From contig NZ_LWBP01000001.1 of the NCBI RefSeq assembly GCF_002078015.1, forward strand, positions 1-64,000: a DNA stretch of 64,000 bases, given 5' to 3'. A program made the position numbers and the translations under genes. Of this stretch, positions 27,453-53,505 are shown piece after piece. This DNA is from Niastella populi (GTDB lineage: Bacteria > Bacteroidota > Bacteroidia > Chitinophagales > Chitinophagaceae). How positions within the stretch are numbered: the first letter of the stretch is position 1; each line of letters begins with the position of its first letter. The notes beneath the pieces were generated by a model that saw only the letters and a program-made list of their open reading frames with translations, searched no databases and was not told the origin of the DNA.

Positions 27453-28013
27453 ATGATCTACGAGAGCCTGAGTTGCCTTGCGGCGGAAATGAATATTTTT
27501 TTCAGGAGCAAACTGAAAATTACCGAAGATAAGGTGGTGGTTTCGGCACTCGTAAACCAGGATGGTTCGGTGGCTATACAGGGCGAAAATAAAATAGCCA
27601 TAACCCTGGTTAACATGACGAAAGACATGGGTATCAGAAGGGAGTATACCACCGGCGCCGGGGTAGTGGCCAATGCGGCCAAACCGGTATGCCTTAATTT
27701 GTTCATCCTGTTGTCGTGTTATTTCACCGCCGGTAACTATGCCGAATCGCTCAGGTTCCTGTCGTTTGTCATCAGCTTTTTACAAACAAAAAATGTGTTC
27801 GATCATACCAATACGCCGCAGCTCGATGCGGCAATAGATAAACTGGTATTTGAGCTGGAATCGTTCGAGCCCGACAGGTTGAGCAATATGTGGGGAACCC
27901 TCGGCGCCAAATATATGCCTTCCGTTCTGTACAGGATGCGCATGATCATTCTCGATGCCACGGTAATAAGGGAATACAGGCCGGCGGTTACAGGTATATC
28001 GACCGGTTTATAA
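27453..28013 (+). CDS. cis16: eCIS tail terminator / cap protein (DUF4255, Pvc16/Afp16-like)
   Basis: This 186-residue protein matches the DUF4255 pattern: an N-terminal MIYESLSCLAAEMNIFFRSK helix, ITLVNMTKDMGIRREY, LNLFILLSCYF, and FLSFVISFLQTKNVFDH ending in VLYRMRMIILD. In AFP/PVC systems this protein caps the sheath and tube end distal to the baseplate. It is the first gene of the structural operon, as in many Bacteroidota eCIS loci. Length agrees with the family's N-terminal domain. Confidence 0.85.
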   Translation: MIYESLSCLAAEMNIFFRSKLKITEDKVVVSALVNQDGSVAIQGENKIAITLVNMTKDMGIRREYTTGAGVVANAAKPVCLNLFILLSCYFTAGNYAESLRFLSFVISFLQTKNVFDHTNTPQLDAAIDKLVFELESFEPDRLSNMWGTLGAKYMPSVLYRMRMIILDATVIREYRPAVTGISTGL

Positions 28014-28033
28014 AACAGGATGCAACAAAAACC

Positions 28034-28873
28034 ATGATGCAGCAGCAATACGAAATAGCATTTAGTATTTTTTTCAGGCATGAGTTCTTTTTAGATGGTG
28101 ATCTGAAATGCCTCACGGTAAAACCGTCGGGCAAAACAGCACATCAGCTGAAACGGGCCGGGGCCATCATGCACCTGTTCCAGAATGGCATCCATGTGTT
28201 ATATGAGTCGTATACAGCGGGCCGGAAAAGATCGCGGGAAGAATTCCTGGCAGATGAATGGGAACTTACCTTTCTGCTGGAAAATACCGATCCCGATTTC
28301 TTCAATTATACCTCGGCTTTGGATATGGACCTGATCTGCAATTATTTCTTTTTTGAAAACGATACCGCCGCGCCGGTTACCGGTAAAGGCATGTTGCATA
28401 AGGCCCCGTTTGCAGGCCCCGACAATATCAGGTCGATAGCCGACATCCCCGGTGAATATTTTATAAAACCTTTCGGCATTGTGCACATTCATGTACATAA
28501 GGCACTGGAGCAAAGTTTCGAGATCGCATTTGCCGGTATTTCAACCTGGTGGTGTTATGTGCTTACACAGGATTATTTGCAGGAACTGGTTAACCCGGCC
28601 ATCATGCACAAGGAAACAAAACAGGTTTTCACCGGGCCCGAACCCATTGTGTTGCCCAATAACAAAATGGCCATGGCCTTTTTTTCAACGGAACCCATCG
28701 CGGTGCGGGAGTACCAGAAAGCATGTTACCAGCTGGTAGAGCATTACACAACGCCGGCGCAAAAGTACAAGGTGGTGTTGCCTTCGCTTCCATACCCTAA
28801 CCGGAACCACATTTCGGTGCTTAAAGGCGTATCGGCATCGAAAGGAAAAAATTTCTCTTACATTTTTATATAA
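28034..28873 (+). CDS. eCIS-associated protein of unknown function (possible cap adaptor)
   Basis: This 279-residue protein starts MMQQQYEIAF at 28034; a longer frame from 27890 overlaps the terminator gene out of frame and is rejected. It is soluble and beta-rich with no motif I can name (FRHEFFLDGDLKCLTV and YIFI at the C-terminus). It sits between the tail terminator and sheath genes, 20 bp after one and 46 bp before the other. From memory, the Algoriphagus particle has a second cap-module protein in this neighbourhood, so a cap or adaptor role is plausible but not shown here. Confidence 0.55.
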   Translation: MMQQQYEIAFSIFFRHEFFLDGDLKCLTVKPSGKTAHQLKRAGAIMHLFQNGIHVLYESYTAGRKRSREEFLADEWELTFLLENTDPDFFNYTSALDMDLICNYFFFENDTAAPVTGKGMLHKAPFAGPDNIRSIADIPGEYFIKPFGIVHIHVHKALEQSFEIAFAGISTWWCYVLTQDYLQELVNPAIMHKETKQVFTGPEPIVLPNNKMAMAFFSTEPIAVREYQKACYQLVEHYTTPAQKYKVVLPSLPYPNRNHISVLKGVSASKGKNFSYIFI

Positions 28874-28919
28874 CAGGTGTTTTCGCATTCAATATTAACC
28901 ACACTAAACAATAAAAATT

Positions 28920-30422
28920 ATGGCAACTACCTTGATGACACCCGGTGTGTACATCGAAGAAAAGAACGCCTTTCCCGGCTCTGCGGTAGCGGTTGAAACA
29001 GCAGTACCTGTATTCATAGGCTATACCGAAAAGGCCGGGCGTAACGGAAAGTCGTTATTGTACAAACCTACACGCGTTACTTCGCTGGCAGTATTCGCCG
29101 AATACTTTGGCGGCGCCTTTCAGTCGAAATATTCCATTGTTGACGCTGCCACCGCCCCGGGCGAGGAAACCTTTATGATCGACGGCCGGCAAATGGTGGT
29201 TCAGGTGAACCCCAACCATGTGGCATTGCTCTACAACGCCATCCGGCTTTTTTATTACAATGGCGGAAGCGCCTGTTATATCCTGTCGGTAGGTACGTAT
29301 GGCGACAAACCCGATGGGTTCGAGATTGCCATGGACGATTTTCTTGGCAGCGAAACCAAACCGAATGTGTTCGCTATTCTCGAAAAAGAGTACGAACCTA
29401 CCCTGGTACTGATGCCCGATATCATTTCAAAGGGCGCGGCTGCCTATGCGTTATACCAGCAGGTGTTGCTGCATTGCAGTAAAATGCAAAGCCGTTTTGG
29501 GTTGTTCGATGTATATCACAAAGCGGGCAGAACCATTGCTGAAGAAATAACCGAGTTCAGGGAACAAATAGGGGTGAACGCATTGAACTACGGCGCAGCT
29601 TATTATCCCTACCTGAAAACTTCGGTGGTGCAGGCAAACGAGCTCGATTACCAGCACCTCGATGCGGCGGTTGACCTGGAAGCATTGCTGCCCGAAGCGG
29701 CCGCAAAGGATGTGGTACAGAAGTTCAAAGCGCTTCCGCCCGACGCAGTAACCGCTACCTCAAGAAAGAATTATCACCAGTCGTTGAAAGCGGCCAGCCC
29801 TACCTATTCAGGCATCCTGGAGGAACTGAGGCGTAAAATGAACGAACTGCCCCCGAGCGCTGCCATGGCCGGCATTTATACGCTTATAGATACCACAAGA
29901 GGCGTATGGAAATCACCGGCGAACGTTTCGGTAAGCATGGTGAACGAGCCCTGCATCAATGTATCGCACGATGAGCAGCAGCAATTGAACGTAGACGTTA
30001 TTTCGGGTAAATCGGTGAACGTGATTAGGCCGTTCCCCGGCATAGGCACCCTGGTATGGGGCGCCAGAACGCTCGATGGCAACAGCCAGGACTGGCGGTA
30101 TATAAATGTACGGCGTACGCTGATCATGATAGAGCAGTCGTTAAAGCTGGCCACCCGGGCTTATGTGTTTGAGGCCAATGATAATGGCACCTGGGTAACG
30201 GTTAGCAGTATGATCACCAATTTCCTGTTCAACTTATGGAAACAGGGCGCCCTGGCCGGCGCTGCCCCCGAACAGGCGTTCAATGTACAGATCGGCCTCG
30301 GCTCTACCATGACGCCTACCGATATCCTCGACGGCATCATGCGTATAACGGTGAAGCTGGCTATCGTACGCCCGGCAGAGTTTATCGTTATTACATTCCA
30401 GCAACAACAACAGCAGTCGTAA
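28920..30422 (+). CDS. cis2: eCIS contractile tail sheath protein
   Basis: This 500-residue phage tail-sheath family protein begins with the signature LMTPGVYIEEKNAFPGSAVA and PVFIGYTEKAG. Conserved later segments are NVFAILEKEYEPTLVLMPD, YIN(V)RRTLIMIEQSLK and the C-terminal IVRPAEFIVITF strand used for inter-subunit handshake contacts. It forms the contractile outer cylinder. Only one sheath gene is present; PVC and AFP have three. Downstream tube genes follow with short gaps. Confidence 0.95.
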   Translation: MATTLMTPGVYIEEKNAFPGSAVAVETAVPVFIGYTEKAGRNGKSLLYKPTRVTSLAVFAEYFGGAFQSKYSIVDAATAPGEETFMIDGRQMVVQVNPNHVALLYNAIRLFYYNGGSACYILSVGTYGDKPDGFEIAMDDFLGSETKPNVFAILEKEYEPTLVLMPDIISKGAAAYALYQQVLLHCSKMQSRFGLFDVYHKAGRTIAEEITEFREQIGVNALNYGAAYYPYLKTSVVQANELDYQHLDAAVDLEALLPEAAAKDVVQKFKALPPDAVTATSRKNYHQSLKAASPTYSGILEELRRKMNELPPSAAMAGIYTLIDTTRGVWKSPANVSVSMVNEPCINVSHDEQQQLNVDVISGKSVNVIRPFPGIGTLVWGARTLDGNSQDWRYINVRRTLIMIEQSLKLATRAYVFEANDNGTWVTVSSMITNFLFNLWKQGALAGAAPEQAFNVQIGLGSTMTPTDILDGIMRITVKLAIVRPAEFIVITFQQQQQQS

Positions 30423-30457: not shown

Positions 30458-30913
30458 ATGGCAGACAATGGAGCCGCACAGGCAGCCACCACCTGGCCCC
30501 TGGTAAAATTTCAGTTCTCGGTTAAGATCGGCAGCGATGAGATCCTGTTCCAGGAAGTAACGGGCCTTGCTTCCGAAACCCAGGTAATTGAATACCGCGT
30601 AGGTAACAGTTCGGTATATTCTACCGTAAAGATGCCGGGCATAAAGAAATTCGGGAACGTTACCTTGAAAAAAGGCATTTTCAAAGACGACAAGAAACTG
30701 TGGGAAATGTACAATAAGATAAAGATGAACACTTTTGAGCGGCAAACGGTAGTGATCAGTTTGCTCGATGAAAGCAATAACGTAGCCATGTCGTGGAACC
30801 TTACCAATGCTTTCCCGGCCAAGATGTCGGTAACGGATATGAAGTCCGATGCCAATGAACCTGCCGTAGAAACCATAGAGCTGGCGCATGAAGGGTTTAA
30901 TATAGCCAGTTAA
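30458..30913 (+). CDS. cis1: eCIS inner tube protein (gp19/Hcp-like), copy a
   Basis: This 151-residue T4 gp19-like tube protein has the signature FSVKIGSDEILFQEVTGLAS followed by KKFGNVTLKKGIF and AFPAKMSVTDMKS. It should assemble into stacked hexameric rings inside the sheath. It is paired with a second, more diverged tube-like gene 27 bp downstream. Confidence 0.93.
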   Translation: MADNGAAQAATTWPLVKFQFSVKIGSDEILFQEVTGLASETQVIEYRVGNSSVYSTVKMPGIKKFGNVTLKKGIFKDDKKLWEMYNKIKMNTFERQTVVISLLDESNNVAMSWNLTNAFPAKMSVTDMKSDANEPAVETIELAHEGFNIAS

Positions 30914-30940: not shown

Positions 30941-31384
30941 ATGCCAACCCCATATTCCATTCCGGTAGCTTTTAGTTTCGAGGTCAGGATCCCGGGTTTC
31001 AGCAACGAAGGCGAATGCAGCTTCAGAGATGTAGGCGGGCTGGTGGTAAAGCTGGGCCTTGAATCGGTAAACGAAGGCGGTGTAAATGATTATGTGCACA
31101 AGTTCCCCAAACGCGCCGCGTATAACGAACTGGTGTTCAGGCGGGGGATCTTAACAGGTTCCCAGTTCTATACCTGGATAAACGACGCCGTCAGGAATTT
31201 TACCTTCAAACCAAAGCAGATCTATATCAGCCTCATCAACGAGCAAAAAACGCCCGTTATAAGATGGCGGGTCGAAAATGCCTTTCCCATTGGGATAGAG
31301 ATTGCCGAATTCAAGGCGCTGGAGAATTCCCTGGCTATTGAAACGCTTACCGTTGCCTACGATTATTTTGTAAGAACAGGTTAA
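30941..31384 (+). CDS. eCIS tube-initiator-like protein (gp19-like), copy b
   Basis: This 147-residue protein of the same fold family has FSFEVRIPGFSNEGECSFRD, LVFRRGILTGSQFYTW and VENAFPIGIEIAEFK. Divergence from the first tube protein, and the order tube-a then tube-b, match PVC1/PVC5-type pairs. There the second protein forms the first ring above the baseplate hub. This role is inferred from gene order. Confidence 0.85.
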   Translation: MPTPYSIPVAFSFEVRIPGFSNEGECSFRDVGGLVVKLGLESVNEGGVNDYVHKFPKRAAYNELVFRRGILTGSQFYTWINDAVRNFTFKPKQIYISLINEQKTPVIRWRVENAFPIGIEIAEFKALENSLAIETLTVAYDYFVRTG

Positions 31385-31395
31385 TAACAACTACT

Positions 31396-31560
31396 ATGCC
31401 TTTGGAAATACGCGAACTGGTAATAAAGGTAGAGATCGATGAAGCCACGCAAAAGCATGACGGCGACGACAGGCAGCGGTATGAAGAGCTGAAAAAAGAG
31501 ATCATGAAGGAGTGTATGAAAAAGATAGAATCAAAATTGGAAAATTTATTTACCCGGTAA
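31396..31560 (+). CDS. Small eCIS-associated protein (DUF5908-like)
   Basis: This 54-residue protein begins MPLEIRELVIKVEIDEATQK and continues as a charged helix ending KIESKLENLFTR. Small proteins with the PxEIRELVIK start lie in this position in Bacteroidota eCIS operons (DUF5908). The gene is 11 bp after the tube-b gene and 1 bp before the LysM gene. A structural or chaperone role near tube and hub is plausible; function is unknown. Confidence 0.8.
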   Translation: MPLEIRELVIKVEIDEATQKHDGDDRQRYEELKKEIMKECMKKIESKLENLFTR

Positions 31561-31561: not shown

Positions 31562-32227
31562 ATGGCGCTCGAAAAACTCCAGATCCAGGCTTTTTCCGAT
31601 GCGGCCTGTACCAAAGCAACGTCGAATGCGGTCAAAGCCTTTATAAATCCCGAAGGTTATTCCCGGAATTGCTCCATTACCTATAAGGATGTTGAGCTGA
31701 TAGGCGATTCCGGGAATACCAAAGCTTTCGTTGGCATGGGCGATGATACGTTGTCGTTGAACAATCTTATCGTAGACGGCACCGGCATCGTTTCACTGGG
31801 CAACTACCAAAATGTGGATGCGTATATCAAAGCATTTACCGATGTGGTATACAAATTCAACGGCAGTATGCACCAGGCCAATTTCCTGATGGTGACCTGG
31901 GGCAACCTGAAATATACCGGCGTGTGTAAGTCGTTCAAGGTAAGGTACACCTTATTCAAACCGGATGGCAGCGCTTTGCGGGCATTTATCGACCTGGTGA
32001 TCGGATCGTCGATCGACCTGAAGACCAAAAGCAAACTGGCCGTAAAGGAATCGCCCGACCTCACGCATTACCGCACGGTGAAAGCGGGCGATACCCTGCC
32101 ATTGATGACCTACAGGATCTATGGCGACAGCGCTTATTATCTTCAGGTGGCGCAGATAAATAACCTGAAAAGCATTTTTGCACTTAAACCGGGCGATAAG
32201 ATCTATTTTCCACCACTAAAGAAATGA
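31562..32227 (+). CDS. cis7: eCIS baseplate hub protein with LysM (Cis7/gp53-like)
   Basis: This 221-residue protein has an N-terminal tube/hub-like domain (1-160: LQIQAFSD, FINPEGYSRN, FKVRYTLFKPDGSALRAFID) and a C-terminal LysM-like module (168-219: YRTVKAGDTLPLMTYRIYGD to LKPGDKIYFPP). In AFP/PVC the equivalent protein joins the spike hub and the wedges. It lies 1 bp upstream of the VgrG-like gene, as expected for hub partners. Confidence 0.9.
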   Translation: MALEKLQIQAFSDAACTKATSNAVKAFINPEGYSRNCSITYKDVELIGDSGNTKAFVGMGDDTLSLNNLIVDGTGIVSLGNYQNVDAYIKAFTDVVYKFNGSMHQANFLMVTWGNLKYTGVCKSFKVRYTLFKPDGSALRAFIDLVIGSSIDLKTKSKLAVKESPDLTHYRTVKAGDTLPLMTYRIYGDSAYYLQVAQINNLKSIFALKPGDKIYFPPLKK

Positions 32228-32228: not shown

Positions 32229-34034
32229 ATGCCGGCCCCTTCACCTGAAAGTAATATCGATGACCTGTCGTTACGGGTAACCGTTACTGTAAACGGCGCC
32301 CCCCTCAAGGATAACACAGGCATTATGGCCATTACTATTTTTCACGAAATAAACAGGATCTCCACCGCGGAAATAGTACTGAGCGGGGAGATCGATATTG
32401 ACAATGCAACGCTTGAAGCTTCCGATGGCGATGACTTTGCACCCGGCAGCGAAATACAAATTACGGCCGGGTACGGCGATAAAGGGGAGAAGGCCATTTT
32501 TGAAGGGGTTATCGTAAAACATGGGATCGAGATCAGCTCCGTTACTTCTTATACGCTCAGGCTCTTCTGCAAACACAAGGCCGTGCGTTTGACCTTTAAC
32601 CGCAGCTCGGCCGAGTTTAAAGACAAAACAGACAGTGCGATCATCTCCGGCATACTGGGTAATTATGGCCTGGATGCAACCGTAGACAGTACCACTATAC
32701 AAAATGAGAACTTCTTTCAGAAACAGGCTACCGACTGGGACCTGGTATTATCGAGGGCGGAATTCAACGGCTTTTTGATCCTGCTGGATGGCGATACGGT
32801 GAAAATAGGAAAACCGCTGCTTACCGCTTCACCGGTATTACGGGTAGCAGCCAGCGAATCGATGATGGCCTTTACCGCCGAATTGAACGTAGAGGGGCAG
32901 GCGCCGGCTATAGAAGCTGCAGCCTGGGACAGCAAAACCCAGGCGCTGTTGCAATCGACAGCTACCGAGCCTTCGATCAATGAACAGGGCAACCTGAAGC
33001 CCAAAGACCTGTCGGCCAAACTGAGCCAGGTGAAACTTAACCTGCATGCCGCCGCCGCTTTGACGGCAGATGAACTGAAGGCATGGGCCGATGGCAAGTT
33101 ATTGCGGATGCGGTTAAGCGCTTTTAAGGGCCGGGTTAGTTTTATAGGTAATGCCGATGTAAAGACCGGCAGCCTGATAACACTGGAAGGGGTTGGCAAA
33201 AAATTCAATGGCGATGCTTTTGTGGCGGGGGTGGTGCATGAACTGGAAAAGGGAATATGGAAAACGACCGTCAAATTCGGGTTGGAAAGCAGGCAGGTGG
33301 CGGAAAGCCCTGGTTTTTCCTATACACCTGCAACCGGGCAGTTGCCTGCTGTACAGGGCTTACAAATAGGAACGGTAAAAAAGCTGTCGGCAGATCCGCA
33401 GGCTGCCTACCGGATCCTGGTAACGCTTTCTTCCGGCGCTCAGAATGCCAGCGGCATCTGGGCAAGAATGGCTAATTTTTATGCTACTTCATCAGCCGGC
33501 CTGGGTTTTTTGCCTGAAGTGAACGACGAGGTGGTGGTGGGTTTTTTAGATAACGATCCCCGCTTCCCGGTGATCCTCGGTTCATTGTACAGCGCAAAAA
33601 ATGCCGCGCCCAACCCGGCCGCCGATGAAAACAATTACATCAAGAGCATTACCACCAAAAGTAAAATGAAGGTTAGTTTCGACGATCAGAACAAGATCAT
33701 AAAAATTGAAACGCCGGGCGCCAATACCATTACCATCAGCGACCAGGACAAAGCGATAGAAATAAAAGACCAGAACAGCAACAATATAAAAATGAATGCC
33801 GAGGGCATCAGCCTGAGCAGTGCAAAGGATATCACGATCGATGCCAGGGGAAATTTAAAGCTCAGTGCCGTTAGTAAGATCTCACTGAATGCGAGCGGCG
33901 GCGATGTAGAGTTGGCGGGATTAAATGTAAAACATACCGCACAGGTTGGCTTTACCGCAAAAGGCACGGCTACCGCAGAGCTTTCGGCTTCAGGACAAAC
34001 TACCGTAAAAGGGGCGATGGTGATGATTAATTGA
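32229..34034 (+). CDS. cis8: eCIS spike protein (VgrG/gp27-gp5-like)
   Basis: This 601-residue protein has a gp27-like hub region (about 10-350), a gp5-type OB fold (about 376-460; GIWARMANFYATSSAGLGFL, EVNDEVVVGFLDNDPRFPVI) and a C-terminal triple beta-helix of short repeats (IKIETPGANTITISDQDKAI, IEIKDQNSNNIKMNAEG). There is no C-terminal effector domain. The trimer should carry the PAAR tip encoded downstream. The next gene is 244 bp away, the only large gap in the operon, and it is filled by a tandem repeat. Confidence 0.95.
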   Translation: MPAPSPESNIDDLSLRVTVTVNGAPLKDNTGIMAITIFHEINRISTAEIVLSGEIDIDNATLEASDGDDFAPGSEIQITAGYGDKGEKAIFEGVIVKHGIEISSVTSYTLRLFCKHKAVRLTFNRSSAEFKDKTDSAIISGILGNYGLDATVDSTTIQNENFFQKQATDWDLVLSRAEFNGFLILLDGDTVKIGKPLLTASPVLRVAASESMMAFTAELNVEGQAPAIEAAAWDSKTQALLQSTATEPSINEQGNLKPKDLSAKLSQVKLNLHAAAALTADELKAWADGKLLRMRLSAFKGRVSFIGNADVKTGSLITLEGVGKKFNGDAFVAGVVHELEKGIWKTTVKFGLESRQVAESPGFSYTPATGQLPAVQGLQIGTVKKLSADPQAAYRILVTLSSGAQNASGIWARMANFYATSSAGLGFLPEVNDEVVVGFLDNDPRFPVILGSLYSAKNAAPNPAADENNYIKSITTKSKMKVSFDDQNKIIKIETPGANTITISDQDKAIEIKDQNSNNIKMNAEGISLSSAKDITIDARGNLKLSAVSKISLNASGGDVELAGLNVKHTAQVGFTAKGTATAELSASGQTTVKGAMVMIN

Positions 34035-34278: not shown

Positions 34279-34581
34279 ATGGGAATGATGGCTGCGCGTA
34301 TAACTGACCTGCACACCTGCCCGATGGTGACGCCGGGGCTTCCGCCTGTACCGCATGTGGGCGGCCCCATCGTTGGACCGGGCGCCCCAACAGTGCTGAT
34401 CGGCAATATGCCGGCAGCGGTGATGGGCGATAGCGCGGTATGTACCGGCCCGCCCGATTCAATTATGAAGGGGTCGGCCACCGTTTTAATTTGTGGTAAA
34501 CCGGCTGCGCGGGTGGGCGATATTACCGCCCATGGCGGAACAATTACCCTGGGCTGTGCAACTGTATTAATAGGAGGATGA
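34279..34581 (+). CDS. cis10: PAAR-domain spike tip protein
   Basis: This 100-residue protein consists of a PAAR domain with repeated turn motifs: HTCPMVTPGLPPVPHVGGPI, APTVLIGNMPAAVMGD, GSATVLICGKPAARVGD and ITLGCATVLIGG. His and Cys residues suitable for the tip metal site are present. It should cap the VgrG-like beta-helix and pierce the target membrane. The start at 34279 is used, though MMAARITD (34285) is equally possible. It carries no extension, so cargo is not fused to the tip. Confidence 0.95.
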   Translation: MGMMAARITDLHTCPMVTPGLPPVPHVGGPIVGPGAPTVLIGNMPAAVMGDSAVCTGPPDSIMKGSATVLICGKPAARVGDITAHGGTITLGCATVLIGG

Positions 34582-34584: not shown

Positions 34585-35001
34585 ATGGAACCTGCAGTAA
34601 ATACTTTTTTAGGACGCGGCTGGAGTTTTCCCCCGTCGTTCGACCGCATCAATAACGCCAACCAGATGGCGTCCGACGTGGCTGATATAGAAGAAAGCAT
34701 CCGCATCATTTTGGGAACCACACCGGGTGAACGGATGATGCAGCCTGCTTTCGGGTGCCCCATCAAAAACGTGGTGTTCGAACAGATGAGCGCCAACCTG
34801 GTTACAGAAGTGAACCATATAATAGGCCATGCATTACTGAATTTTGAGCCGAGGATAAAATTCCTGCAGGCAGTTTTTTTAGATGAGATCGATAACGATG
34901 GAGTTATTCATATCCGCATAGACTATTCAATCATTACTACAAATACCAGACATAACATCGTATATCCATTCTATATGGCAGAAGGGACCAATGTTTTCTG
35001 A
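34585..35001 (+). CDS. cis9: Baseplate wedge protein, gp25/GPW family
   Basis: This 138-residue gp25-like protein contains FLGRGWSFPPSFDRINNANQ, VADIEESIRIILGTTPGERM and FGCPIKNVVFEQM (the EPR-like core loop of the family is GERMMQP here). It links wedge and sheath at the baseplate. It starts 3 bp after the PAAR stop. Confidence 0.93.
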   Translation: MEPAVNTFLGRGWSFPPSFDRINNANQMASDVADIEESIRIILGTTPGERMMQPAFGCPIKNVVFEQMSANLVTEVNHIIGHALLNFEPRIKFLQAVFLDEIDNDGVIHIRIDYSIITTNTRHNIVYPFYMAEGTNVF

Positions 35002-35016
35002 TAAAAAACTGTTTTG

Positions 35017-38835: not shown

Positions 38836-39612
38836 GTGTTTAAAAAGAAAATATACAGCCGCGAAGACCTGAAAAAGTATTTTCGTAACGGCGAAATACC
38901 CACGGAAAATCATTTTGCCAGTCTCATAGATTCAATGCTCAACAAACAGGATGACGGGTTTGCAAAAGACGATGAGAACGGCCTGATCATTGCACCCCGC
39001 GGCAGCTCTACGAAGTTCGTTACTTTATACAGGAGCGTAGATGATCTGAATCCCTTCTTTTCTATGGAAAAAGATGAACGGGAGATGGCCGGTTTGCGTT
39101 TCACGCCTTCCGGTGAGAACAATGAGGAGAACGAAGAGCGGCAAAGTTTCTTTTTTCATGTAAACGGCAGTGCCGGTATAGGTACGCGGTGTAAGGAAGA
39201 ATACAAACTGCAGGTAAACGGTTTCGTTGGCATAGAGGGCAGGGTAGGTACGTATTTGCAGGGGCAGGTGCCGGCCGACGGCAAATGGCATTCGATAATA
39301 GAAGGACTGGACAACTGCCAGGCCTTCGAGCTCATTGCCCGTACCGGGAAAAAAGGCTTTGGCAAATTTGCCATTCTTCATGCCTGGGCGTTGAGCGCAT
39401 TCGGCAGGTCGCGCGGCAGCATCAGGAAGGTGAGTGCCCGTTATGGTTCATTCTGGAACAGGATCGGTATAAGGTGGAAAAGTAAAGGCACGCACGATTA
39501 TGCGCTTCAGTTACGCACCGGCCGTAATTACGGGCAGGATGTGTTTATCTATTATAAAGTAAGCAAATTGTGGGACGACGAAAAGTTCCTTCCGCCGGCA
39601 TATTACTATTAA
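38836..39612 (+). CDS. eCIS-associated protein, possible fibre or baseplate decoration
   Basis: This 258-residue protein starts at GTG 38836 (MFKKKIYSREDLKKYFRNGE). The N-terminus ENHFASLIDSMLNKQDDGF with DDENGLII resembles attachment domains at the head of phage/eCIS tail fibre-like proteins. The central HVNGSAGIGTRCKEEYKLQV segment is a fibre-type GxxxxxxxLxVxG repeat. A jelly-roll-like C-terminus follows. Its location between the two wedge genes fits a peripheral, receptor-contacting or anchoring protein. No enzymatic motif is seen. Confidence 0.55.
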   Translation: MFKKKIYSREDLKKYFRNGEIPTENHFASLIDSMLNKQDDGFAKDDENGLIIAPRGSSTKFVTLYRSVDDLNPFFSMEKDEREMAGLRFTPSGENNEENEERQSFFFHVNGSAGIGTRCKEEYKLQVNGFVGIEGRVGTYLQGQVPADGKWHSIIEGLDNCQAFELIARTGKKGFGKFAILHAWALSAFGRSRGSIRKVSARYGSFWNRIGIRWKSKGTHDYALQLRTGRNYGQDVFIYYKVSKLWDDEKFLPPAYYY

Positions 39613-45891: not shown

Positions 45892-46758
45892 TTACAAATC
45901 CATTTCTACAGGGTCTGAATAGCCTGGTGAATTGGGTATGTCGATTTTCTGTTGTACAGCCTTAGGGTCCCAATAATAACCGGTTTTGATCCATTTGCTT
46001 AAATGTTTTTTCATGATTTGTTTTCGGTTCTTACTTCCATTCTTGTAATAATCATTGAGTGCCTCATAATCCACCTTTAACAACTTATCTGTTTTTTCTT
46101 TTTTACCGTTACATTCAGGGCAAAGCATCCATAAGTTATTAGTGTCTGATAATACCTCATATTGATAGCCTTTGAAATCCAGTCCTTTTTTTACTTTATA
46201 GTTACCATATCTTTCTCTCATGCTTGTTGAGAAATTCTCATTGGTCAAAGAGGAATCGAATTCATCCCTTTTTGTCCAGTCAAGCTGTAATTCATCGGCA
46301 ATGGTTTCTCCTCTGGCTTTATCTTCGTTATATACGTCAAGAAGTTTTAGCAAAAATGCTTCGGGGACCATGTGATCAACCTGTAACCGGTCCATAAATT
46401 CTGCTTTATTACAAGCCTCGCACGTCGCAACTCTTCTTCCGCTACCCCCACTAACCATAGGTGTTTTACTATAAACTCTTTCCTGGGCATACCGGCGGGC
46501 ATCACTGTGGTCATGGGTGTCAGGGACTTTTACTCTTTGTACCGGGCAACATGTTGCGCAGGTACAAGCTGCTTCATGTAAGTCCTGCTTCAGCTGGATT
46601 GGATTGTTAGCTGGCTGTTTTAGTTGAAGCGGATTCATTTGCAATGGATCATCCTTCTCACCAGCGGACTTTTGCTGTAGTGGATTGTTTGTTGCTTTGC
46701 CGTTTGTTGTAACGGCAGGTTGGGAGGCCTGTTTTTTCTGTAATGCAACAGGTTGCAT
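45892..46758 (-). CDS. Putative eCIS cargo: HNH endonuclease with cargo leader
   Basis: This 288-residue protein starts MQPVALQKKQ at 46758; a longer frame from 46902 overlaps the neighbour out of frame and is rejected. Residues 1-75 are a low-complexity leader with DPLQMNPLQLKQPANNPIQL and a Cys cluster (CTCATCC) ending PVQRV. Residues 108-225 form an HNH fold: CEAC (113-116), the catalytic VDHMVPEA (Asp128, His129), NNLWML, then CPECN (213-217), so both zinc Cys pairs and the HNH core are intact. The C-terminus is Lys-rich. It should cut DNA in the target cell. The DNA is visibly AT-richer than the structural operon. No adjacent immunity gene was seen. Confidence 0.75.
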   Translation of the reverse strand: MQPVALQKKQASQPAVTTNGKATNNPLQQKSAGEKDDPLQMNPLQLKQPANNPIQLKQDLHEAACTCATCCPVQRVKVPDTHDHSDARRYAQERVYSKTPMVSGGSGRRVATCEACNKAEFMDRLQVDHMVPEAFLLKLLDVYNEDKARGETIADELQLDWTKRDEFDSSLTNENFSTSMRERYGNYKVKKGLDFKGYQYEVLSDTNNLWMLCPECNGKKEKTDKLLKVDYEALNDYYKNGSKNRKQIMKKHLSKWIKTGYYWDPKAVQQKIDIPNSPGYSDPVEMDL

Positions 46759-46798
46759 AGAAGTATGTTTTATTAATTTGCCCTTTTGGGTTAAATGT

Positions 46799-48001
46799 TC
46801 AGGTATCCTTTCGTGTGAATTCCATCTCTCTGCATCCGCAACCCTTACCTGTGAAGTTATGATCCGCCGGTCCTTTATCTGTAAAGTCTTTGCCTTTGTC
46901 ACTGTACCATTCTGCGGCAGAATGAGCAGATTCTAATTTAATTGTCTTAAGCTTTTCTTTCTCCAATAGCGCTTTGGCTTTTTTAATTAATTCACTGCCG
47001 CCACCGCCTTTTGCGGGGTGGCCCACCAGCCACCTGACGTACAGGTATTGAGGTCCTTCTATCTCTTCATCATCACTTTCTTCACCCGCTTTCAGCTTAT
47101 CTGCCCGTGTCTCTATTATCATTACTGCTATCGGTTCTCCTTCGCCCTTATATACAGCTTTATAGATCCATAGTTTTTTCGTTACCCCATAAGGTTGCCT
47201 GTCCTCTTCGTTCATCATATCACTGGCTACATCAGGTCCTTCATCAAACTGGTCCCAAACCGGGCACGAACAGAGTTCATTTTTCTCCATCTCCTTCTTG
47301 TTCCTCTTTTCCAGTCCCACGCTACGTCTGCGTTTCTTTTTTCCTAATGCTATCCACTCATCGTTTATTTGCTGTAATGCCGCATCCATTTCTTCTTCTT
47401 CCCAGTTCTCTACCTCAACTACTTCTATGTCTTTTGGCGCCGGCCTGCCTTTATCCGGCGCCACGGATGTGAAGGTTATGGTTTCTTTCCTTACATACAC
47501 ATTCTGTTTCGAAAGATCTATTTTTCCACCATCGCCATTTATGATCCCCAAAACACGGATCCATTGGTGAGAATGGGATCCCTTCTTATCCGCGGCCCGC
47601 TTCCCGGCGTTTTCCTGGTTTGCCCCTCTGCGTGACAACATTACGGGTTCATCATCTAAAAGAAGTTTTTGCCCTTTGGTTAGCTGCCCACCCTTATTAA
47701 CAGGCAACTCATTTGCCAGTGCATCGGCTCCACCGAATAAACTATCTTCCTGTTCTTCAACGAGGTGAGTAATTTCCCAAACTACTGTTGCTTCCCGCTC
47801 CACTCTTTGAACCACCTGTGATTTTGCTGTCTGTAGTTGTATAGGATTACTGGCAGGTTGTTTTAGTTGCAACGGATTTTGTGCTCTCGTTTTTAACTGC
47901 AAGGGTACCCGGTTCATTTGCACCGGGTTGCTGCCGGCTTTTCCGGTGGTGGGTGTTACATATTTGAAAGGCTTACTTTGTAGCGGTGCTGCAACTGACA
48001 T
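46799..48001 (-). CDS. Putative eCIS cargo: GNAT-like acetyltransferase with cargo leader
   Basis: This 400-residue protein has a leader (1-67) with NPVQMNRVPLQLKTRAQNP and QNPLQLKQPASNPIQLQ, ending VVQRV as in the HNH protein. A middle domain (70-200, VVWEITHLVEEQEDSLFG; SHSHQWIRVLGIING) is unrecognised. An acidic and then basic linker follows (NWEEEE, KKKRRR at 221-226, which could act as a nuclear localisation signal). The C-terminal domain (about 275-378) fits GNAT: PIAVMIIETRADKL, the acetyl-CoA loop WLVGHPAKGGGGSELI and the late motif LESAHSAAEWYSDKGKDF. I infer acetylation of a target-cell molecule. Key residues would need structural confirmation. Confidence 0.65.
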   Translation of the reverse strand: MSVAAPLQSKPFKYVTPTTGKAGSNPVQMNRVPLQLKTRAQNPLQLKQPASNPIQLQTAKSQVVQRVEREATVVWEITHLVEEQEDSLFGGADALANELPVNKGGQLTKGQKLLLDDEPVMLSRRGANQENAGKRAADKKGSHSHQWIRVLGIINGDGGKIDLSKQNVYVRKETITFTSVAPDKGRPAPKDIEVVEVENWEEEEMDAALQQINDEWIALGKKKRRRSVGLEKRNKKEMEKNELCSCPVWDQFDEGPDVASDMMNEEDRQPYGVTKKLWIYKAVYKGEGEPIAVMIIETRADKLKAGEESDDEEIEGPQYLYVRWLVGHPAKGGGGSELIKKAKALLEKEKLKTIKLESAHSAAEWYSDKGKDFTDKGPADHNFTGKGCGCREMEFTRKDT

Positions 48002-48071: not shown

Positions 48072-48950
48072 CTAGTCATATTCACCGCGGTCGTATTTTT
48101 TACGAATTTGCTTCATAGCGTTTGCTACTCCATTTGAATGCTGATTGCCTTTTCCTCCTCCGCCCTGATTTTTTTTCGTCACAAGCCCTCCTTCCTCCTC
48201 ATGACTGCCATGCTCTCGTAGCAGCTCCTGTCGTCTAACAGAGGTCAGATTTTCCCACCAGGTGCCAAAAGCCTGTCTTCCCTCCTGAACCTCTGATATA
48301 TTCGTAGAATTACATTCAGGACATTTTTTTTTGGGTTTTCCCGGCCCTTCTTCATCGCAATCGTTACATTTCCATTTACCCTGAACCACCGCAGTTAGTT
48401 GCGATGGGGCAGAATGAGCTGTGATAGCCGGCGCTTTTTGGCAGCCGGCACAACCACATCCTTCACCATGTGCAACAGTCTTCATTTGAACTGCTCTGTC
48501 ACCCATTACATCAGCCTCTTCCTCCAACCCCTTGTCATCATTCACCGCTATTCCTTGCTTCATTTGCATGGTCGCCTGTACTCTTCCCTGTTTTTGCTGT
48601 ACTACATGCCATGCTTCGTGGGGCAGGTGTTTCTCCTGTCCCGGTGCTATATGTATGTCGGTGCCCTGCGCATAAGCCAGCGCCTGTAACTGAGTCGGTT
48701 TTTCGCTATTGAAATGTACTTTCACATCATCCATGCTGAAACCCGAGAGTGCTTCCACGCCGGCTTTCAGGTTATCGGGTAAGCCGGTATTGTTCTGTTT
48801 GGGTTGTGAGGTGGCGGTTTCTTCTGTCTGTAATTGTAAGGGATTATTGGCCGGCTGCTTTGGTTGCAGTGGGTTGGCGGTGCTACCGATGATAGTGTCG
48901 GTAGTGTTGGTTTTTGAGTCGTCTTTTTTCTTCAGGATAACAGTTCGCAT
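48072..48950 (-). CDS. DUF4157 (eCIS core) metallopeptidase-like protein with zinc ribbon
   Basis: This 292-residue protein has a short leader (24-41: TANPLQPKQPANNPLQLQ), then a DUF4157 domain (about 56-152): DNLKAGVEALSGFSMDDVKV, DIHIAPGQEKHLPHEAWHVV with the zinc site HEAWH (111-115), and the third-ligand motif GLEEEADVMG (141-150). A CGCAGC cluster (165-170) follows. The junction TAVVQG (186-191) resembles the VVQR junctions of the two other cargos. A zinc ribbon has Cys195, Cys198, Cys210 and Cys213. The C-terminal 70 residues (RQAFGTWWENLTSVRRQELL) are unrecognised and may be a toxin domain. DUF4157 is known to associate with eCIS cargos. It lies directly downstream of the AAA+ gene. 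Confidence 0.8.
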   Translation of the reverse strand: MRTVILKKKDDSKTNTTDTIIGSTANPLQPKQPANNPLQLQTEETATSQPKQNNTGLPDNLKAGVEALSGFSMDDVKVHFNSEKPTQLQALAYAQGTDIHIAPGQEKHLPHEAWHVVQQKQGRVQATMQMKQGIAVNDDKGLEEEADVMGDRAVQMKTVAHGEGCGCAGCQKAPAITAHSAPSQLTAVVQGKWKCNDCDEEGPGKPKKKCPECNSTNISEVQEGRQAFGTWWENLTSVRRQELLREHGSHEEEGGLVTKKNQGGGGKGNQHSNGVANAMKQIRKKYDRGEYD

Positions 48951-48982: not shown

Positions 48983-50329
48983 TTATACCACCGCCTTTCC
49001 TTCCTTGTGCATTTCCTTTCGGATCGCATGTTTAACATCGGGCAAAAAAATTTCCGTTGTGTTACGTCCCAGGGCCCGAAGGCAGCACCAGCGTACTACA
49101 TTCATTATGGCGGCGCCGGTTATGGCATGGTCTGCTGCCAGTTTGGGCAAACTTACCTCCGGCGCCAGTTTACAGGGTGGGGAAAAGGCGACTGTCCACA
49201 ATTGCAGCCGCTGGTGCTCGTCGGGCTTTTTGAAATCGATCATTACCTGGAATCGGCGGGCAAAAGCTTCATCCACATTGTTCTTAAAATTGGTGGCCAG
49301 CACTATCAATCCGTTATAGTCTTCAATTCGCTGTAACAGGTACGACACTTCCTGGTTGGCATGCCGGTCATGCGCATCCGACACATTGGTACGTTTGCCG
49401 AACAATGCATCGGCCTCATCGAAGAACAGGATCCAGTTCCTGTTCTCGGCCATATCAAATACGCTGGCCAGGTTCTTTTCCGTTTCACCTATGTATTTTG
49501 ACACAACCATCGAAAGATCTATGCGGTAGACGTCCATGCCGGCCCATTTGCCCAGCAGGGCGGCGGTGAGCGTTTTGCCGGTGCCGGGCGGCCCTGAGAA
49601 TAAGACCCGGAAACCGGGTTTTATCTTTTTGGCATAACCCCAGTCGTTCAGCAGGGTAGGGCCGTGCTGCAGCCAGGTCTTTATTTCTTCCAGTTCGGCC
49701 ATTACTTCATCATCTACCACCAGGTCGGCCCACTCCATACCGGTAGTTAACCGCTTTGCCGGAAAACCGGCGGTGAAGTCGGGCCTGAATTTTTCCCCGG
49801 TAGTGAGCAGGGTAAGGTATTCGGTTGAGGGTATAAGTAATCCGCTCAGGCGTGGCTCACCCGGTGCAACGGGTTGTAACTTCAGTATATTTTGCGTGTG
49901 AAAAATGTGTGTATCGTTAAACAGGTGCAGCAGGCGGTAACGCTGTTGCAGATCGTTGCCGGCTAAAAGGAATACCGCCGTTTCGCCCGTAGGCAGGTTG
50001 CAGCCTCCCGGGCTTTTTTGTCCGCCCAACTGGGTGAACGGATGCCCGGTACTTTCATTCTTCATCAGCAACATGTCGAGCAGTTCGGGCTGCAGGTGCG
50101 GCGCGAGGGAAAGGATGAGCACAAAACGCTCTGCATGCGACAAATTGAACTGGCGGATAACGGCAGCGTAGGGTGACGGGTCGTTGGTGACGGCAGGAGG
50201 GGTGATCGTATTCACCGGCGGCTGGCTGGGGTCGTTATTGAATGAAATGGCGCCGCGGGCCGTAAGGATGGCCGAGAACCATTCCAGTTCCCTGGCAGCG
50301 GTAACGGCATTGGCCTGTAATGTGTCCAT
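48983..50329 (-). CDS. cis15: eCIS AAA+ ATPase (Cis15)
   Basis: This 448-residue protein has an N-terminal helical domain typical of Cis15 proteins (FSAILTARGAISF, FNLSHAERFVLILSLAPHLQ) and one AAA+ module: Walker A GPPGTGKT (246-253), Walker B ILFFDEAD (300-307), sensor-1 Asn347 and the arginine finger pair ARRF (357-360). In PVC/AFP loci the homologue is proposed to act in assembly or cargo loading. Here it is transcribed with the cargo genes rather than the structural genes, in keeping with a loading role. Confidence 0.92.
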   Translation of the reverse strand: MDTLQANAVTAARELEWFSAILTARGAISFNNDPSQPPVNTITPPAVTNDPSPYAAVIRQFNLSHAERFVLILSLAPHLQPELLDMLLMKNESTGHPFTQLGGQKSPGGCNLPTGETAVFLLAGNDLQQRYRLLHLFNDTHIFHTQNILKLQPVAPGEPRLSGLLIPSTEYLTLLTTGEKFRPDFTAGFPAKRLTTGMEWADLVVDDEVMAELEEIKTWLQHGPTLLNDWGYAKKIKPGFRVLFSGPPGTGKTLTAALLGKWAGMDVYRIDLSMVVSKYIGETEKNLASVFDMAENRNWILFFDEADALFGKRTNVSDAHDRHANQEVSYLLQRIEDYNGLIVLATNFKNNVDEAFARRFQVMIDFKKPDEHQRLQLWTVAFSPPCKLAPEVSLPKLAADHAITGAAIMNVVRWCCLRALGRNTTEIFLPDVKHAIRKEMHKEGKAVV

Positions 50330-50346: not shown

Positions 50347-51141
50347 TTAAACAGGTTTTGCCGCATCGGTTTTTTCCATCTGAAGAATGGCCTTATACGC
50401 TTCCGGCTCAATTTTCAGTTTACCGGTAAAGGGATGATCGAGAATAATGATGATATAAATGACCAACCCCATAAACGCACCTAATAAACCATTAGCGGTT
50501 ATATGCAGGCGCCTGCTTTCCACATCAACCAGCACGGCGAAGATCAGTATAATAGCGCCTCCCATCAATAATGGCAGCCATATTTCCAGTGGGATAGAAG
50601 AGGTGGCGTCGAGAAAACGTAAACTCCGGTTTTCAGCCAGCTCATTCAACTGCCTGAACATTTCGCTGAAATAGGCATCTTTATCAAGTTTCACCATTTC
50701 CTGGAAAACCGCATTGAAATGGACGTGGTTGTTGGCGGTTACTGGCTTCATTGCTTCCATTTCAGGAAATTCCTCATTTACCACCGATCGTATATAATCT
50801 ATATACAATGCTTTCAGTGACGCCGCTTTGCCGGGCTGGGGATAAAATTTTATATCGCGGTATAAAGCACGGGCTATGCTGCCTTCACGGTTGGTATTGG
50901 TTTGGGCCTCATTTACTGCATCCCATACAAGAAATACCACAAAACCCAGCAGTAACCCGTAAAAACCACCAACCGTAGCAAAGATGTAACCTACCAGCTC
51001 ATTGTGCGAACGCAGTGGCTTCATGTTCACATACCTGCGAAAGAAATACGTACAGGCAATGCCGGTTAACGAGAAAAGCAGCACAATGATGATCAGCAGC
51101 AGTAAAGGAGGAAATTCCAGCATAAAGCGTACAAAGTTCAT
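50347..51141 (-). CDS. DUF4239-like (bestrophin-like) inner membrane protein
   Basis: This 264-residue protein has TM helices at about 9-33, 48-72, 186-207 and 214-234. The motif LRSHNELVGYIFATVGGFYG and LLLGFVVFLVWDAV is typical of the DUF4239/bestrophin-like family. The middle region is soluble. It is the first gene of the minus-strand cargo operon, 17 bp upstream of the AAA+ gene. A role in membrane association, particle release or lysis can be imagined. This is context inference. Confidence 0.75.
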   Translation of the reverse strand: MNFVRFMLEFPPLLLLIIIVLLFSLTGIACTYFFRRYVNMKPLRSHNELVGYIFATVGGFYGLLLGFVVFLVWDAVNEAQTNTNREGSIARALYRDIKFYPQPGKAASLKALYIDYIRSVVNEEFPEMEAMKPVTANNHVHFNAVFQEMVKLDKDAYFSEMFRQLNELAENRSLRFLDATSSIPLEIWLPLLMGGAIILIFAVLVDVESRRLHITANGLLGAFMGLVIYIIIILDHPFTGKLKIEPEAYKAILQMEKTDAAKPV

Positions 51142-51248: not shown

Positions 51249-51266
51249 AAAACAGGTATTTCTACC
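51249..51266. promoter_or_regulatory. 18-mer palindromic motif, copy 2
   Basis: AAAACAGGTATTTCTACC is the exact reverse complement of 27376-27393. It lies 53-70 bp upstream of the GH18-like gene (plus) and 108-125 bp upstream of the DUF4239 gene (minus), in the 177-bp divergent region. It is a candidate shared operator. Confidence 0.5.
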
Positions 51267-51290
51267 CGGGCTTCAACATGGCGGCTTTTT

Positions 51291-51298
51291 TACTTTTA
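51291..51298 (+). promoter_or_regulatory. Candidate -7 box of the GH18-like gene
   Basis: TACTTTTA is one base from TAnnTTTG and ends 20 bp before the ATG at 51319. The 18-mer copy 2 is centred about 45 bp upstream of the expected start, a normal activator position. Confidence 0.35.
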
Positions 51299-51318
51299 AC
51301 CTATGAAGTTGTGTTATT

Positions 51319-53505
51319 ATGAAAAGATTTTCACATGCTGCAGCCTGTTTAATTTGTTTATTGCTATTCTTTACTTCAAACGCTCAAACAATTGTTGATG
51401 GGGCTGAAGTGAAAAAAGAAACCAGGAAGAGCTTTGTAAAAGTGCTTCTCGATAAAATAAAATTTACAAAGAACGCAAGGGAAAAAGAAAGGGAACGCAT
51501 TCTTACGCTCGTTGAAAACCTGGGATTACAGGACTCGATCACTGCCAATGCCAATAATATTCAATTGATCATTCATGAGCTCGAAAAAAAGGAAAACCAG
51601 CATTATGATTCCCTGAAGAAGATCATAAATACGATCAGGTTGGCCGATCAGGGCTTAGCTGCCGGAATGCCCGGTGAAAATTCAGTGCAGCCGGAAAACG
51701 GTTTTTCTGATAAGGACCTCGAAACGCTTGCCAGCCAGATAATGCCGTTGCTGAGGGAAAAAGAGGCTGGTGATAAAGAGGAAAAAGAAAAGCAGGAAGT
51801 GTTAAAAAAGCTGCGGGAAATAAGAGATAACAATGCGGGAATAATTCATACCCGGAAAATAGCAGACAGCGTAATTAAAAGGTTTAGCGTAACGTTGAAG
51901 AACAGGGCTGCGCTTTTCGGTTTTTATGATAGCGACGCCGGTTCATTTGCCGGCACACCTGTTTTACAAACTTTAAATTCATTTATTTATCATTCCCTGT
52001 TTGTAAACGAAACAACAGGTGATATTATCAATAAAGCGCCATTGTACGCTTCGCCCGCCATAAGCGCGGCACAGGCTGCAGGGTGCGGTGTTTATTTTTC
52101 CGTGCTGGTACATAACAGCGATAGCAGGTCATCTTTTCTTTATAACGCCAACGCCTGGCAAACATGTGTCGACACGCTGCTTGTGCTATTGAAAAAAAGC
52201 CACGCAAAGGGTATTGTACTCAGCTATAAAAACCTGAGAAAGAAGGACCGCCGTTTGTTTACCGATCTTGTTCTATTTATTTCCGGCGCGTTGCAGCAAT
52301 ACAATGCTTCGTATGAATTGTTCCTCACCGTTCCGCGGGTTGACCTTGCCGGTGCTTATGACATACAGGCCCTTGACGAAGCGGCCGATAAATTTTTTAT
52401 CGACTTTGCCACCAATACAACTTCGGTATGCAGCCCGTTGGCGCCGTTGAAAGGCAGCCAATACAATACGATTGAAAATTCTTTTGCCTGGTATGAGTCG
52501 CAGGGTGTGAAAGCAAATAAAATGGTATTGATATTGCCATACCGTGGAACAAGCTGGCAAATGCGGGACGCTTCTTTGAAACAGGATATTTTTACCGGGT
52601 ATTTAAACATAAGCACCATAAAGAATAAATATGGCGAAGCAGCTTTTTACGATGAAGAAACCTCGAGCGTTTACATTGACACTGTATATGCAAACAACCG
52701 GGTAGGCCGTATATGGTACGACAATGAATTTACACTGGGAGAAAAATATGATTTCATACTGAATAACGGCCTTGGCGGCGCAGCTCTTTTTTGCATCAAT
52801 TACGATGAAGGTTTAAAAGTGCTTAGAGATGAGCTTATGTATAAGTTTGCCTTTGCCGATACTACTTACCTGCAGGACAGTATAATAAGAAGCGTTGCCG
52901 GTTTGTCTTTTTTACAAAAGGCGGAAAGGTATTTATCCTTATACGGATATATTCTCCAGAATCCCTGTGCTACCTGTTACCAGAACTATGAAGGCGATGG
53001 AAGCGCAAGTCAGCGGGAACAGGTGCTTATTTCGTATTTGAGCGAATTGAAGATCGACTCATTGATAAGAGCGAAGAATGGCCGGGTCGCCCCCACATCC
53101 CTGAAAGAACAATTTAACTATATAAACAGCCGGCTTACCACTACTTTACTGTATATAACAGTGGGTCTGTTGCTTGTTAGTTTGGGATTTATATTTATTT
53201 ACGTGGCCGGATTGAGGTATAACGGGGAGGACTGGCAATACAAAAAAACGGTAGCGTTTATATTGATCTTGTTCAGCGCCCTGTTTGTTTTTTCGGGGTT
53301 CACGTGGTGCTTTACCAACGATCTGATTCCCTTGTTCGGGGTTTCGGGCAGTTTTGCGCTGGGTGCCGATTGCCGCACCGACCCCAACTGCATCAATATC
53401 CCCTTCAGTACTTTACTGCTGATCATCATCTCCGGAATTGTCATCGGCTTTATTTTGTTCAGGTACTTTATAACGCCACTGCTTAAAAGGAAAGACGTGC
53501 CCTGA
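51319..53505 (+). CDS. Membrane-anchored GH18-like protein with degenerate active site
   Basis: This 728-residue protein has a signal peptide (1-22, ending NAQ) and a charged coiled-coil region (30-190). A GH18-like barrel spans about 196-498: AALFGFYDSDAG, LPYRGTSW (406-413), AAFYDEETSSVYI, RIWYDNEFTLGEKYDFILNN and GLGGAALFCINYDEG. The expected DxxDxDxE strand reads KGIVLSYKNL (297-306), lacking the catalytic acids. Three TM helices (about 608-630, 643-665, 696-716) anchor the C-terminus. It may bind rather than cleave a glycan. The location next to the eCIS cargo operon and the shared 18-mer suggest a role in envelope passage or anchoring of particles. The GH18 call is by pattern only. Confidence 0.65.
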   Translation: MKRFSHAAACLICLLLFFTSNAQTIVDGAEVKKETRKSFVKVLLDKIKFTKNAREKERERILTLVENLGLQDSITANANNIQLIIHELEKKENQHYDSLKKIINTIRLADQGLAAGMPGENSVQPENGFSDKDLETLASQIMPLLREKEAGDKEEKEKQEVLKKLREIRDNNAGIIHTRKIADSVIKRFSVTLKNRAALFGFYDSDAGSFAGTPVLQTLNSFIYHSLFVNETTGDIINKAPLYASPAISAAQAAGCGVYFSVLVHNSDSRSSFLYNANAWQTCVDTLLVLLKKSHAKGIVLSYKNLRKKDRRLFTDLVLFISGALQQYNASYELFLTVPRVDLAGAYDIQALDEAADKFFIDFATNTTSVCSPLAPLKGSQYNTIENSFAWYESQGVKANKMVLILPYRGTSWQMRDASLKQDIFTGYLNISTIKNKYGEAAFYDEETSSVYIDTVYANNRVGRIWYDNEFTLGEKYDFILNNGLGGAALFCINYDEGLKVLRDELMYKFAFADTTYLQDSIIRSVAGLSFLQKAERYLSLYGYILQNPCATCYQNYEGDGSASQREQVLISYLSELKIDSLIRAKNGRVAPTSLKEQFNYINSRLTTTLLYITVGLLLVSLGFIFIYVAGLRYNGEDWQYKKTVAFILILFSALFVFSGFTWCFTNDLIPLFGVSGSFALGADCRTDPNCINIPFSTLLLIIISGIVIGFILFRYFITPLLKRKDVP

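Follow-up and report, generated by a model that had tools for sequence, protein, structure and literature searches.

The window analyzed here comprises the first 64 kb (64,000 nucleotides) of a 602-kb contig (NZ_LWBP01000001.1) from the 8.6-Mb, 263-contig genome of Niastella populi. It carries the genes of a contractile injection system (CIS) of the extracellular type (eCIS) and, convergent with them, an operon encoding an AAA+ ATPase and three putative cargo proteins. These three proteins have different bodies and one common N-terminal leader, and the leader motif is strongly enriched in front of DUF4157 domains in other genomes. In addition, one of the bodies, a GNAT-like domain, occurs elsewhere fused to DUF4157 and here beside a separate DUF4157 gene (a natural cis/trans pair). 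The structural genes and the two possible regulators directly upstream of them are as follows.

25872-26672, plus strand: histidine kinase (Pfam HisKA_3), a possible regulator judging from its position.
26675-27340, plus strand: LuxR-type response regulator (Pfam Response_reg and GerE), likewise a possible regulator judging from its position.
27453-28013, plus strand: tail terminator or cap protein, Pvc16_N (DUF4255; Pfam, 105 bits).
27890-28873, plus strand: open reading frame (ORF) of a cap adaptor candidate, proposed from its position and from weak similarity (E 0.0081) to the cap adaptor of AlgoCIS; the real start lies somewhere downstream of 27890, and the gene ends at 28873.
28920-30422, plus strand: contractile sheath (Pfam Phage_sheath_1C).
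30458-30913 and 30941-31384, plus strand: two gp19-type tube proteins (Pfam, 137.9 and 114.3 bits).
31396-31560, plus strand: putative spike plug of 54 amino acids (aa) in the Afp6/Alg6 position (DUF5908, 53.5 bits; cut-off, 27.7).
31562-32227, plus strand: tube initiator or hub (CIS_tube, 140.6 bits) with a weak LysM match below its cut-off.
32229-34034, plus strand: VgrG-like central spike (Phage_base_V; vgr_GE, 166.7 bits).
34279-34581, plus strand: PAAR tip (Pfam, 88.3 bits).
34585-35001, plus strand: gp25 baseplate wedge (Pfam, 74.3 bits).
35014-38823, plus strand: large baseplate wedge of the Cis11/Alg11 type, 1269 aa (All3317, E 9.3e-91; AlgoCIS 7aeb_G, E 4e-85).
38836-39612, plus strand: candidate for a fibre-like protein of 258 aa, encoded between the two wedge genes (All3316, weak match, E 0.0068).
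39639-42494, plus strand: second baseplate wedge of the Cis12/Alg12 type, 951 aa (All3315, E 4.2e-76; Algo12, E 1.4e-57).
42491-45868, plus strand: long tape measure with internal repeats, 1125 aa (CIS_TMP, 425 bits in four stretches).

A preliminary description, made from the sequence alone, had read positions 27453 to 53505 as a complete eCIS with three separate cargo genes. The profile search against Pfam for which it had asked bore out the core families: the cap, sheath, both gp19 tube proteins, spike, PAAR tip, gp25, and tape measure, as well as the ATPase and DUF4157 protein of the convergent operon, all have Pfam matches, and the tape measure that had been called repeat rich matches CIS_TMP in its four stretches. 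Pfam matches neither of the two large wedge proteins, which were identified by their similarity to solved baseplate proteins. The LysM hub stood as a hub by its CIS_tube match, while LysM itself fell short. Thus, the window holds the core set of an eCIS (sheath, tube, hub, spike, PAAR, gp25, and two wedges) as well as the cap (DUF4255/Pvc16), tape measure, AAA+ ATPase, and DUF4157 protein also expected of one, which supports a complete eCIS-type gene set at the level of sequence. The eCIS reading is sound as a gene set; extracellular release is not evident from sequence. Overlooked in the preliminary description were the plug gene, for which the plug role (Cis6) is suggested by position; the fibre-like gene, which has no Pfam match and a role suggested by relatives at the same place in other loci; the cap adaptor candidate; and another injection system farther along the contig.

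The genes of the convergent operon run on the minus strand in the order bestrophin-like gene, ATPase, DUF4157, GNAT, HNH; by increasing coordinate they are as follows.

45892-46902, minus strand: cargo 1, leader plus HNH nuclease-like body (HNH, 27.9 bits for the body and 26 bits for the whole ORF; cut-off, 21.4), assigned as cargo by the shared leader.
46799-48001, minus strand: cargo 2, leader plus GNAT acetyltransferase-like body, no DUF4157, assigned by DUF4157-fused relatives and predicted fold.
48072-48950, minus strand: cargo 3 or adaptor, leader plus DUF4157 (HEAWH) plus zinc-ribbon-like tail (eCIS_core, which is DUF4157, 34.8 bits; cut-off, 22).
48983-50329, minus strand: AAA+ ATPase, the presumed loader (Pfam AAA, 95.5 bits; ∼52% identical to ATPases of other loci).
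50347-51141, minus strand: bestrophin-like membrane protein (PF14023, 179.8 bits), 17 nucleotides (nt) upstream of the ATPase gene and of uncertain membership.

The HNH gene probably starts at the ATG at 46758, 40 nt past the GNAT stop codon, and not at the GTG at 46902. The right boundary of the preliminary description was set too far, because 51319-53505 encodes a GH18-like protein outside the system; the last injection gene ends at 50329, and inclusion of the bestrophin-like gene would move this limit to 51141. The placement of the ATPase gene is unusual. In 73 tape-measure/ATPase pairs, a count that includes the window and the second system of the same genome, the ATPase lies on the strand opposite the tape measure only in the window, where it sits with the cargo genes; elsewhere it goes with the tape measure. 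A scan of named genomes with this ATPase confirmed no relative.

The leader common to the HNH, GNAT, and DUF4157 proteins consists of repeats of NPLQLKQPANNPIQLK, follows the pattern NPLQ[LP]KQPA[NS]NP[IL]QL, and is probably disordered. Chance likeness was rejected as its origin, with pairwise z values against shuffles of 12.1, 8.0, and 9.4. The three bodies behind the leader are mutually unrelated (pairwise z of −1.3, 2.9, and 0.1), so that one leader stands on effectors with different bodies, as is looked for in eCIS cargo with an N-terminal loading signal. The leader is private to the window. It has no match anywhere else in its own genome, and the idea that this exact form is widespread was rejected, since among 395 genomes of the class (its own included) four others gave weak matches, each with an internal stop, and four viral contigs fit a degenerate DNA pattern of the leader, none of them convincing as a leader. 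This privacy counts against the loading-tag reading given below.

The identities proposed earlier for the cargo bodies held to different degrees. The HNH profile exceeds its cut-off in the body of cargo 1, for which a single-sequence structure model, examined for the beta-beta-alpha metal fold, reached a pLDDT of just 40. The zinc-ribbon-like tail of the DUF4157 protein gave profile matches below the cut-offs, leaving DUF4157 as the part of that cargo borne out by a profile. For cargo 2, the GNAT-like assignment draws on the predicted fold and on a relative in locus L115 (∼34% identical) that matches Acetyltransf_10 at 25.8 bits (cut-off, 23.6); a second relative, in L175, is below the cut-off, and the window protein itself matches no GNAT profile in Pfam up to an E value of 1. 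In both of these other genomes the GNAT body is fused behind a leader and DUF4157, whereas in the window it follows the leader alone and DUF4157 is a neighbouring gene. Neither the HNH nor the DUF4157 protein has a convincing solved relative, the GNAT protein has none by sequence, and NCBIfam names none of the cargo proteins.

The remark that the cargo combination was unfamiliar agrees with the surveys: the GNAT body found one weak partial match among 394 other genomes, and no relative of the HNH body turned up among the fetched loci or among 374 other genomes sampled from the phylum. The isolation of the HNH body is also what would be expected if the HNH and GNAT genes were bystanders, such as mobile or defence genes, and the DUF4157 protein were the sole cargo. 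We consider this very improbable, given that the leader is common to all three proteins and that two other genomes encode the GNAT body as a fusion with leader-DUF4157. Leader-sharing neighbours are also found elsewhere. The local leader is shared by 25 of 584 DUF4157-less same-strand neighbours, spread over 18 of 102 loci; the two window genes are among the 25, one case (L134) appears to be false, and several retain remnants of DUF4157. For each of the two window genes, none of 80 sampled foreign leaders scored as high. The shared leader, the enrichment of its motif elsewhere, and the GNAT-DUF4157 fusions thus support the earlier proposal that the operon encodes the payload, and they suggest that its products would be loaded.

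To place the leader among its relatives, we compared the N-termini of DUF4157 proteins in two sets of loci. Set 1 comprised 52 loci (L056 to L107) chosen among the matches of the CIS_TMP surveys of the genus and the class described below. A scan of named genomes with the HEAWH core of the window protein found at least 551 relatives, the best 80 of which formed set 2; these 80 are mostly from Bacteroidota and also from Nitrosomonas, Cellvibrio, Okeania, SAR324, and others. Gene calling followed a simple longest-ORF rule, and an HExxH..QQ-type pattern served to detect DUF4157; because this pattern is not the Pfam profile, diverged copies are missed and some are counted as DUF4157-less. The set 1 leader motif count, the counts at and around the core, and the motif test by DUF4157 subclass include the second system of N. 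populi and not the window; the chain-neighbour, set 2, leader-pair, cross-set identity, non-Bacteroidota, and masked tests exclude both.

The motif [LIVMFA]Q.K occurred 159 times in the N-termini before DUF4157 of 50 set 1 proteins, compared with 16.0 in shuffles, while Q..K and [LIVMFA]E.K were not enriched. The same test on set 2 gave 256 occurrences, compared with 26.1 in shuffles, and the motif was present in 99 of 114 proteins; no N-terminus was identical between the two sets. A group labelled non-Bacteroidota, sorted by hand using record titles, gave 91 compared with 8.2 (29 proteins). The commonest neighbouring residues extend the motif to P[LIV]Q[RKGL]K. When two recurring blocks were masked, the motif still exceeded the shuffles about tenfold (358 compared with 37.4; 162 proteins). 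Another recurring leader block, DNRP....Q(R)KL, was seen in L061, L068, L114, L115, L130, L146, and others, and DNR is present in 54 of the 114 set 2 N-termini, compared with 1.9 in shuffles. A VVQR-like junction marking all cargos was also considered and rejected; [VIL]VQR follows the core in just 4 of 48 DUF4157 proteins, and therefore no cleavage site is claimed. Passages retrieved by a full-text literature search hold no mention of such a leader motif, the sole "QxK" match concerning residues of DUF4365.

Leaders are worded locally. Among 66 pairs of DUF4157 proteins from the same locus (39 loci), 62 have unrelated bodies, and in 53 of these the leaders are alike (z > 5; median, 19.7). Between loci, the leaders of unrelated-body pairs are alike in 112 of 388 cases (median, 2.7). 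DUF4157-less same-strand neighbours in the gene chains also carried two or more motifs more often than controls: 6 of 118 compared with 3 of 391 in set 1, where one of the six is a wedge, and 18 of 283 compared with 4 of 631 in set 2. The 18 include at least one tape-measure piece and several genes with DUF4157 remnants, and a single control among the 4 resembles a cargo.

We regard it as an even prospect that the motif-repeat leaders serve as loading tags specific to each locus, with the ATPase as their probable reader, that DUF4157 helps in cis or in trans, and that the phage-tail-like machine of the window loads the three cargos in this way. Several of the same observations weigh against this. 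Leader sharing within a locus could come from duplication with swapped bodies. The motif is also found just inside or after the DUF4157 core, so that it may instead characterize the DUF4157 linker. Most DUF4157-less chain neighbours have fewer than two motifs (112 of 118 in set 1 and 265 of 283 in set 2), many of these being structural or housekeeping genes, and those with two or more include the wedge and tape-measure pieces and the DUF4157 remnants noted above. The loci are mutually related, and the shuffles preserve composition and leave shared ancestry in place.

These points define the main rival, in which the eCIS of the window is an ordinary one and its leaders are disordered tails without specificity. 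In this rival, tails were copied with a leader or leader-DUF4157 cassette, the toxin body was then replaced, the motif plays no part in recognition, and disorder and polarity are the only features read during loading, as the literature proposes. Same-locus leaders with swapped bodies are what cassette duplication would give, the occurrence of the motif around the core fits a linker, and a study of eCIS-associated toxins reports no conserved signal sequence and finds that physical features predict cargo (PMC11297309). On the other side, the motif stands far above composition-preserving shuffles, also with the two blocks masked and in differently worded leaders, and two window cargos keep the leader without any DUF4157. 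The shuffles speak against composition alone, yet they leave a shared linker ancestry possible; we rate unspecific tails as a possible explanation, somewhat on the doubtful side, and as the chief competitor of locus-specific loading tags.

A long tape measure and a HEAWH-type DUF4157 mark the lineage to which the window system belongs. Apart from fragments and exceptions, the frames span 459 to 907 aa in tape measures with one full-length CIS_TMP match and 825 to 2279 aa in those that match in several stretches, including that of the window. A long tape measure unique to the window was rejected, as a CIS_TMP survey of the class sample finds others. The DUF4157 proteins divide along the same line: the core reads HE[AT]WH in 13 of 13 proteins at long-tape loci and HELTH in 34 of 35 at the others. 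This count covers 48 proteins of set 1, 13 from 8 of the 20 long-tape loci and 35 from the 32 remaining loci, where the tape measures are fragmentary in a few cases; it drops proteins with the core in the first 60 residues (one in L067), the window, and the second system of the same genome. Both subclasses show the leader motif (273 compared with 29.3 in shuffles for 128 proteins and 142 compared with 13.1 for 36 proteins).

A structural relative of the window system was present in 35 of the 80 set 2 stretches; in the other stretches the DUF4157 gene stands as an orphan over the length fetched. Many set 2 cargos are consequently orphans, a further point against taking their leaders as addresses for a machine. 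HEAWH-type DUF4157 genes in L130, L144, L171, and L183 (three Chitinophaga species and one [Flexibacter] strain) are orphan cargo genes of this kind, with no relatives of the window structural genes visible in the 20-kb stretches.

The second injection system lies at ∼130 to 157 kb of the contig (L010 and L011), ∼80 kb away. It has a short tape measure of 486 aa and two large DUF4157 proteins (∼1100 and 1259 to 1491 aa) of the HELTH type, the leaders of which carry the same motif in other wording. CIS_TMP was found in 5 of 10 genomes of the genus and in 52 of 395 genomes of the class sample, each count including N. populi, and eCIS are reported in 89% of sequenced Chitinophaga, with several copies in some genomes (PMC8213781). 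The injection cluster is thus of a kind already known and is not rare as such. Outside it, the minus strand at 8153-19049 holds six tandem paralogous proteins of ∼500 aa, 35 to 74% identical and with no Pfam or NCBIfam match, and two family-2 glycosyltransferases (9664-10521 and 18177-19049; ∼70% mutual identity). This array looks like a recently amplified membrane glycosylation locus.

Comparison with described systems indicates which parts are new. AlgoCIS of Algoriphagus machipongonensis has a similar sheath, wedges, cap adaptor, and plug, and its cargos Cgo1 and Cgo2, shown in the tube lumen, have a similar disordered N-terminal domain plus DUF4157; both of its cargos carry DUF4157, whereas two of the three leader-bearing window proteins do not (PMC8894135). 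PVC/Afp systems share with the window an AAA+ ATPase and N-terminal leaders on unrelated effectors, and signal peptides of that lineage have already been grouped by sequence alignment (PMC11495950). They belong to a different lineage, from which the window is set apart by its repeated motif, separate DUF4157 gene, and ATPase gene in the cargo operon. For eCIS-associated toxins, DUF4157 has been described in or beside effectors and a trans action suggested (PMC11297309 and PMC8213781). To that picture, in which no conserved signal sequence was detected, the window adds one effector body in both arrangements and a measured motif. Bacteroidales injection systems (BIS; PMC7394362 and PMC12210884), like the window system, are from Bacteroidota and have DUF4157 and ATPase genes in the cluster, and inversions of these genes are reported; human gut BIS are described as lacking Cis6 and typical fibres, and by these descriptions the window, with its plug candidate, is set apart. 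The leader motif and the GNAT cis/trans pair are the new part, and the gene set is a variant of a known system.

Both wedges and the fibre-like protein encoded between them match the thylakoid-anchored CIS of Anabaena (PMC8894136) best, and thylakoid anchoring cannot apply here. The machine might nonetheless be membrane anchored, in the manner of type 6 subtype iv or thylakoid systems, and fire within the producer or after lysis. The slightly better wedge matches to this membrane-anchored cyanobacterial system, the weak match of the fibre-like protein to it, and the bestrophin-like membrane protein directly upstream of the ATPase fit such an arrangement. The wedges match AlgoCIS nearly as well, the sheath matches 9r9h first (9r9h_T, E 1.5e-133) and AlgoCIS next (7adz, E 6e-108), and the bestrophin-like gene is found in just one other of 134 stretches, which makes anchoring unlikely, although no search aimed at a known anchor, such as the Aasi_0556 type, was made. 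That other case also adjoins the ATPase gene (L154, 11546-12397; Flavobacteriaceae bacterium CRH), and the search of the 134 stretches gave no further relative. A role of the bestrophin-like protein as an anchor, in release, or in immunity is possible.

How the proposed tags would work can be outlined from precedent. The loading of PVC effectors is established to proceed through disordered N-terminal signals, assisted by the ATPase Pvc15 (PMC11495950), and DUF4157 has been proposed to act as a chaperone, either in cis or in trans (PMC11297309). In the window, the convergent operon would make the presumed loader ATPase and three effectors, each beginning with hydrophobic-Q-x-K repeats. As a locus-specific tag, the leader would offer several motif copies for binding by the AAA+ ATPase, or alternatively by a tube protein or DUF4157, and the ATPase would thread the effector into the tube before firing. 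DUF4157 may assist loading either fused to the effector or as a separate protein, the latter applying here to the HNH and GNAT effectors. On contraction the effectors would enter a target, where the nuclease and acetyltransferase would act. ATPase recognition, DUF4157 action in trans, delivery, enzyme activity, and the target itself are all steps that we infer.

A wider extension is speculative, and we hold it with clear doubt: arrays of hydrophobic-Q-x-K, worded per locus, would address CIS cargo in several phyla; DUF4157 would be a separable loading factor; an operon of ATPase, adaptor, and leader-bearing proteins would form a self-contained loading module; and the second system of N. populi would speak another dialect. 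The leaders suggest what such injectors may recognize for loading. A measurable motif, a leader on DUF4157-less bodies, and a natural cis/trans pair would turn cargo recognition into a question that can be tested by deletions and swaps, and the motif would help to find cargos that lack DUF4157. If the proposal is true, the dialect of the second system in the same genome would provide a natural test of orthogonality.

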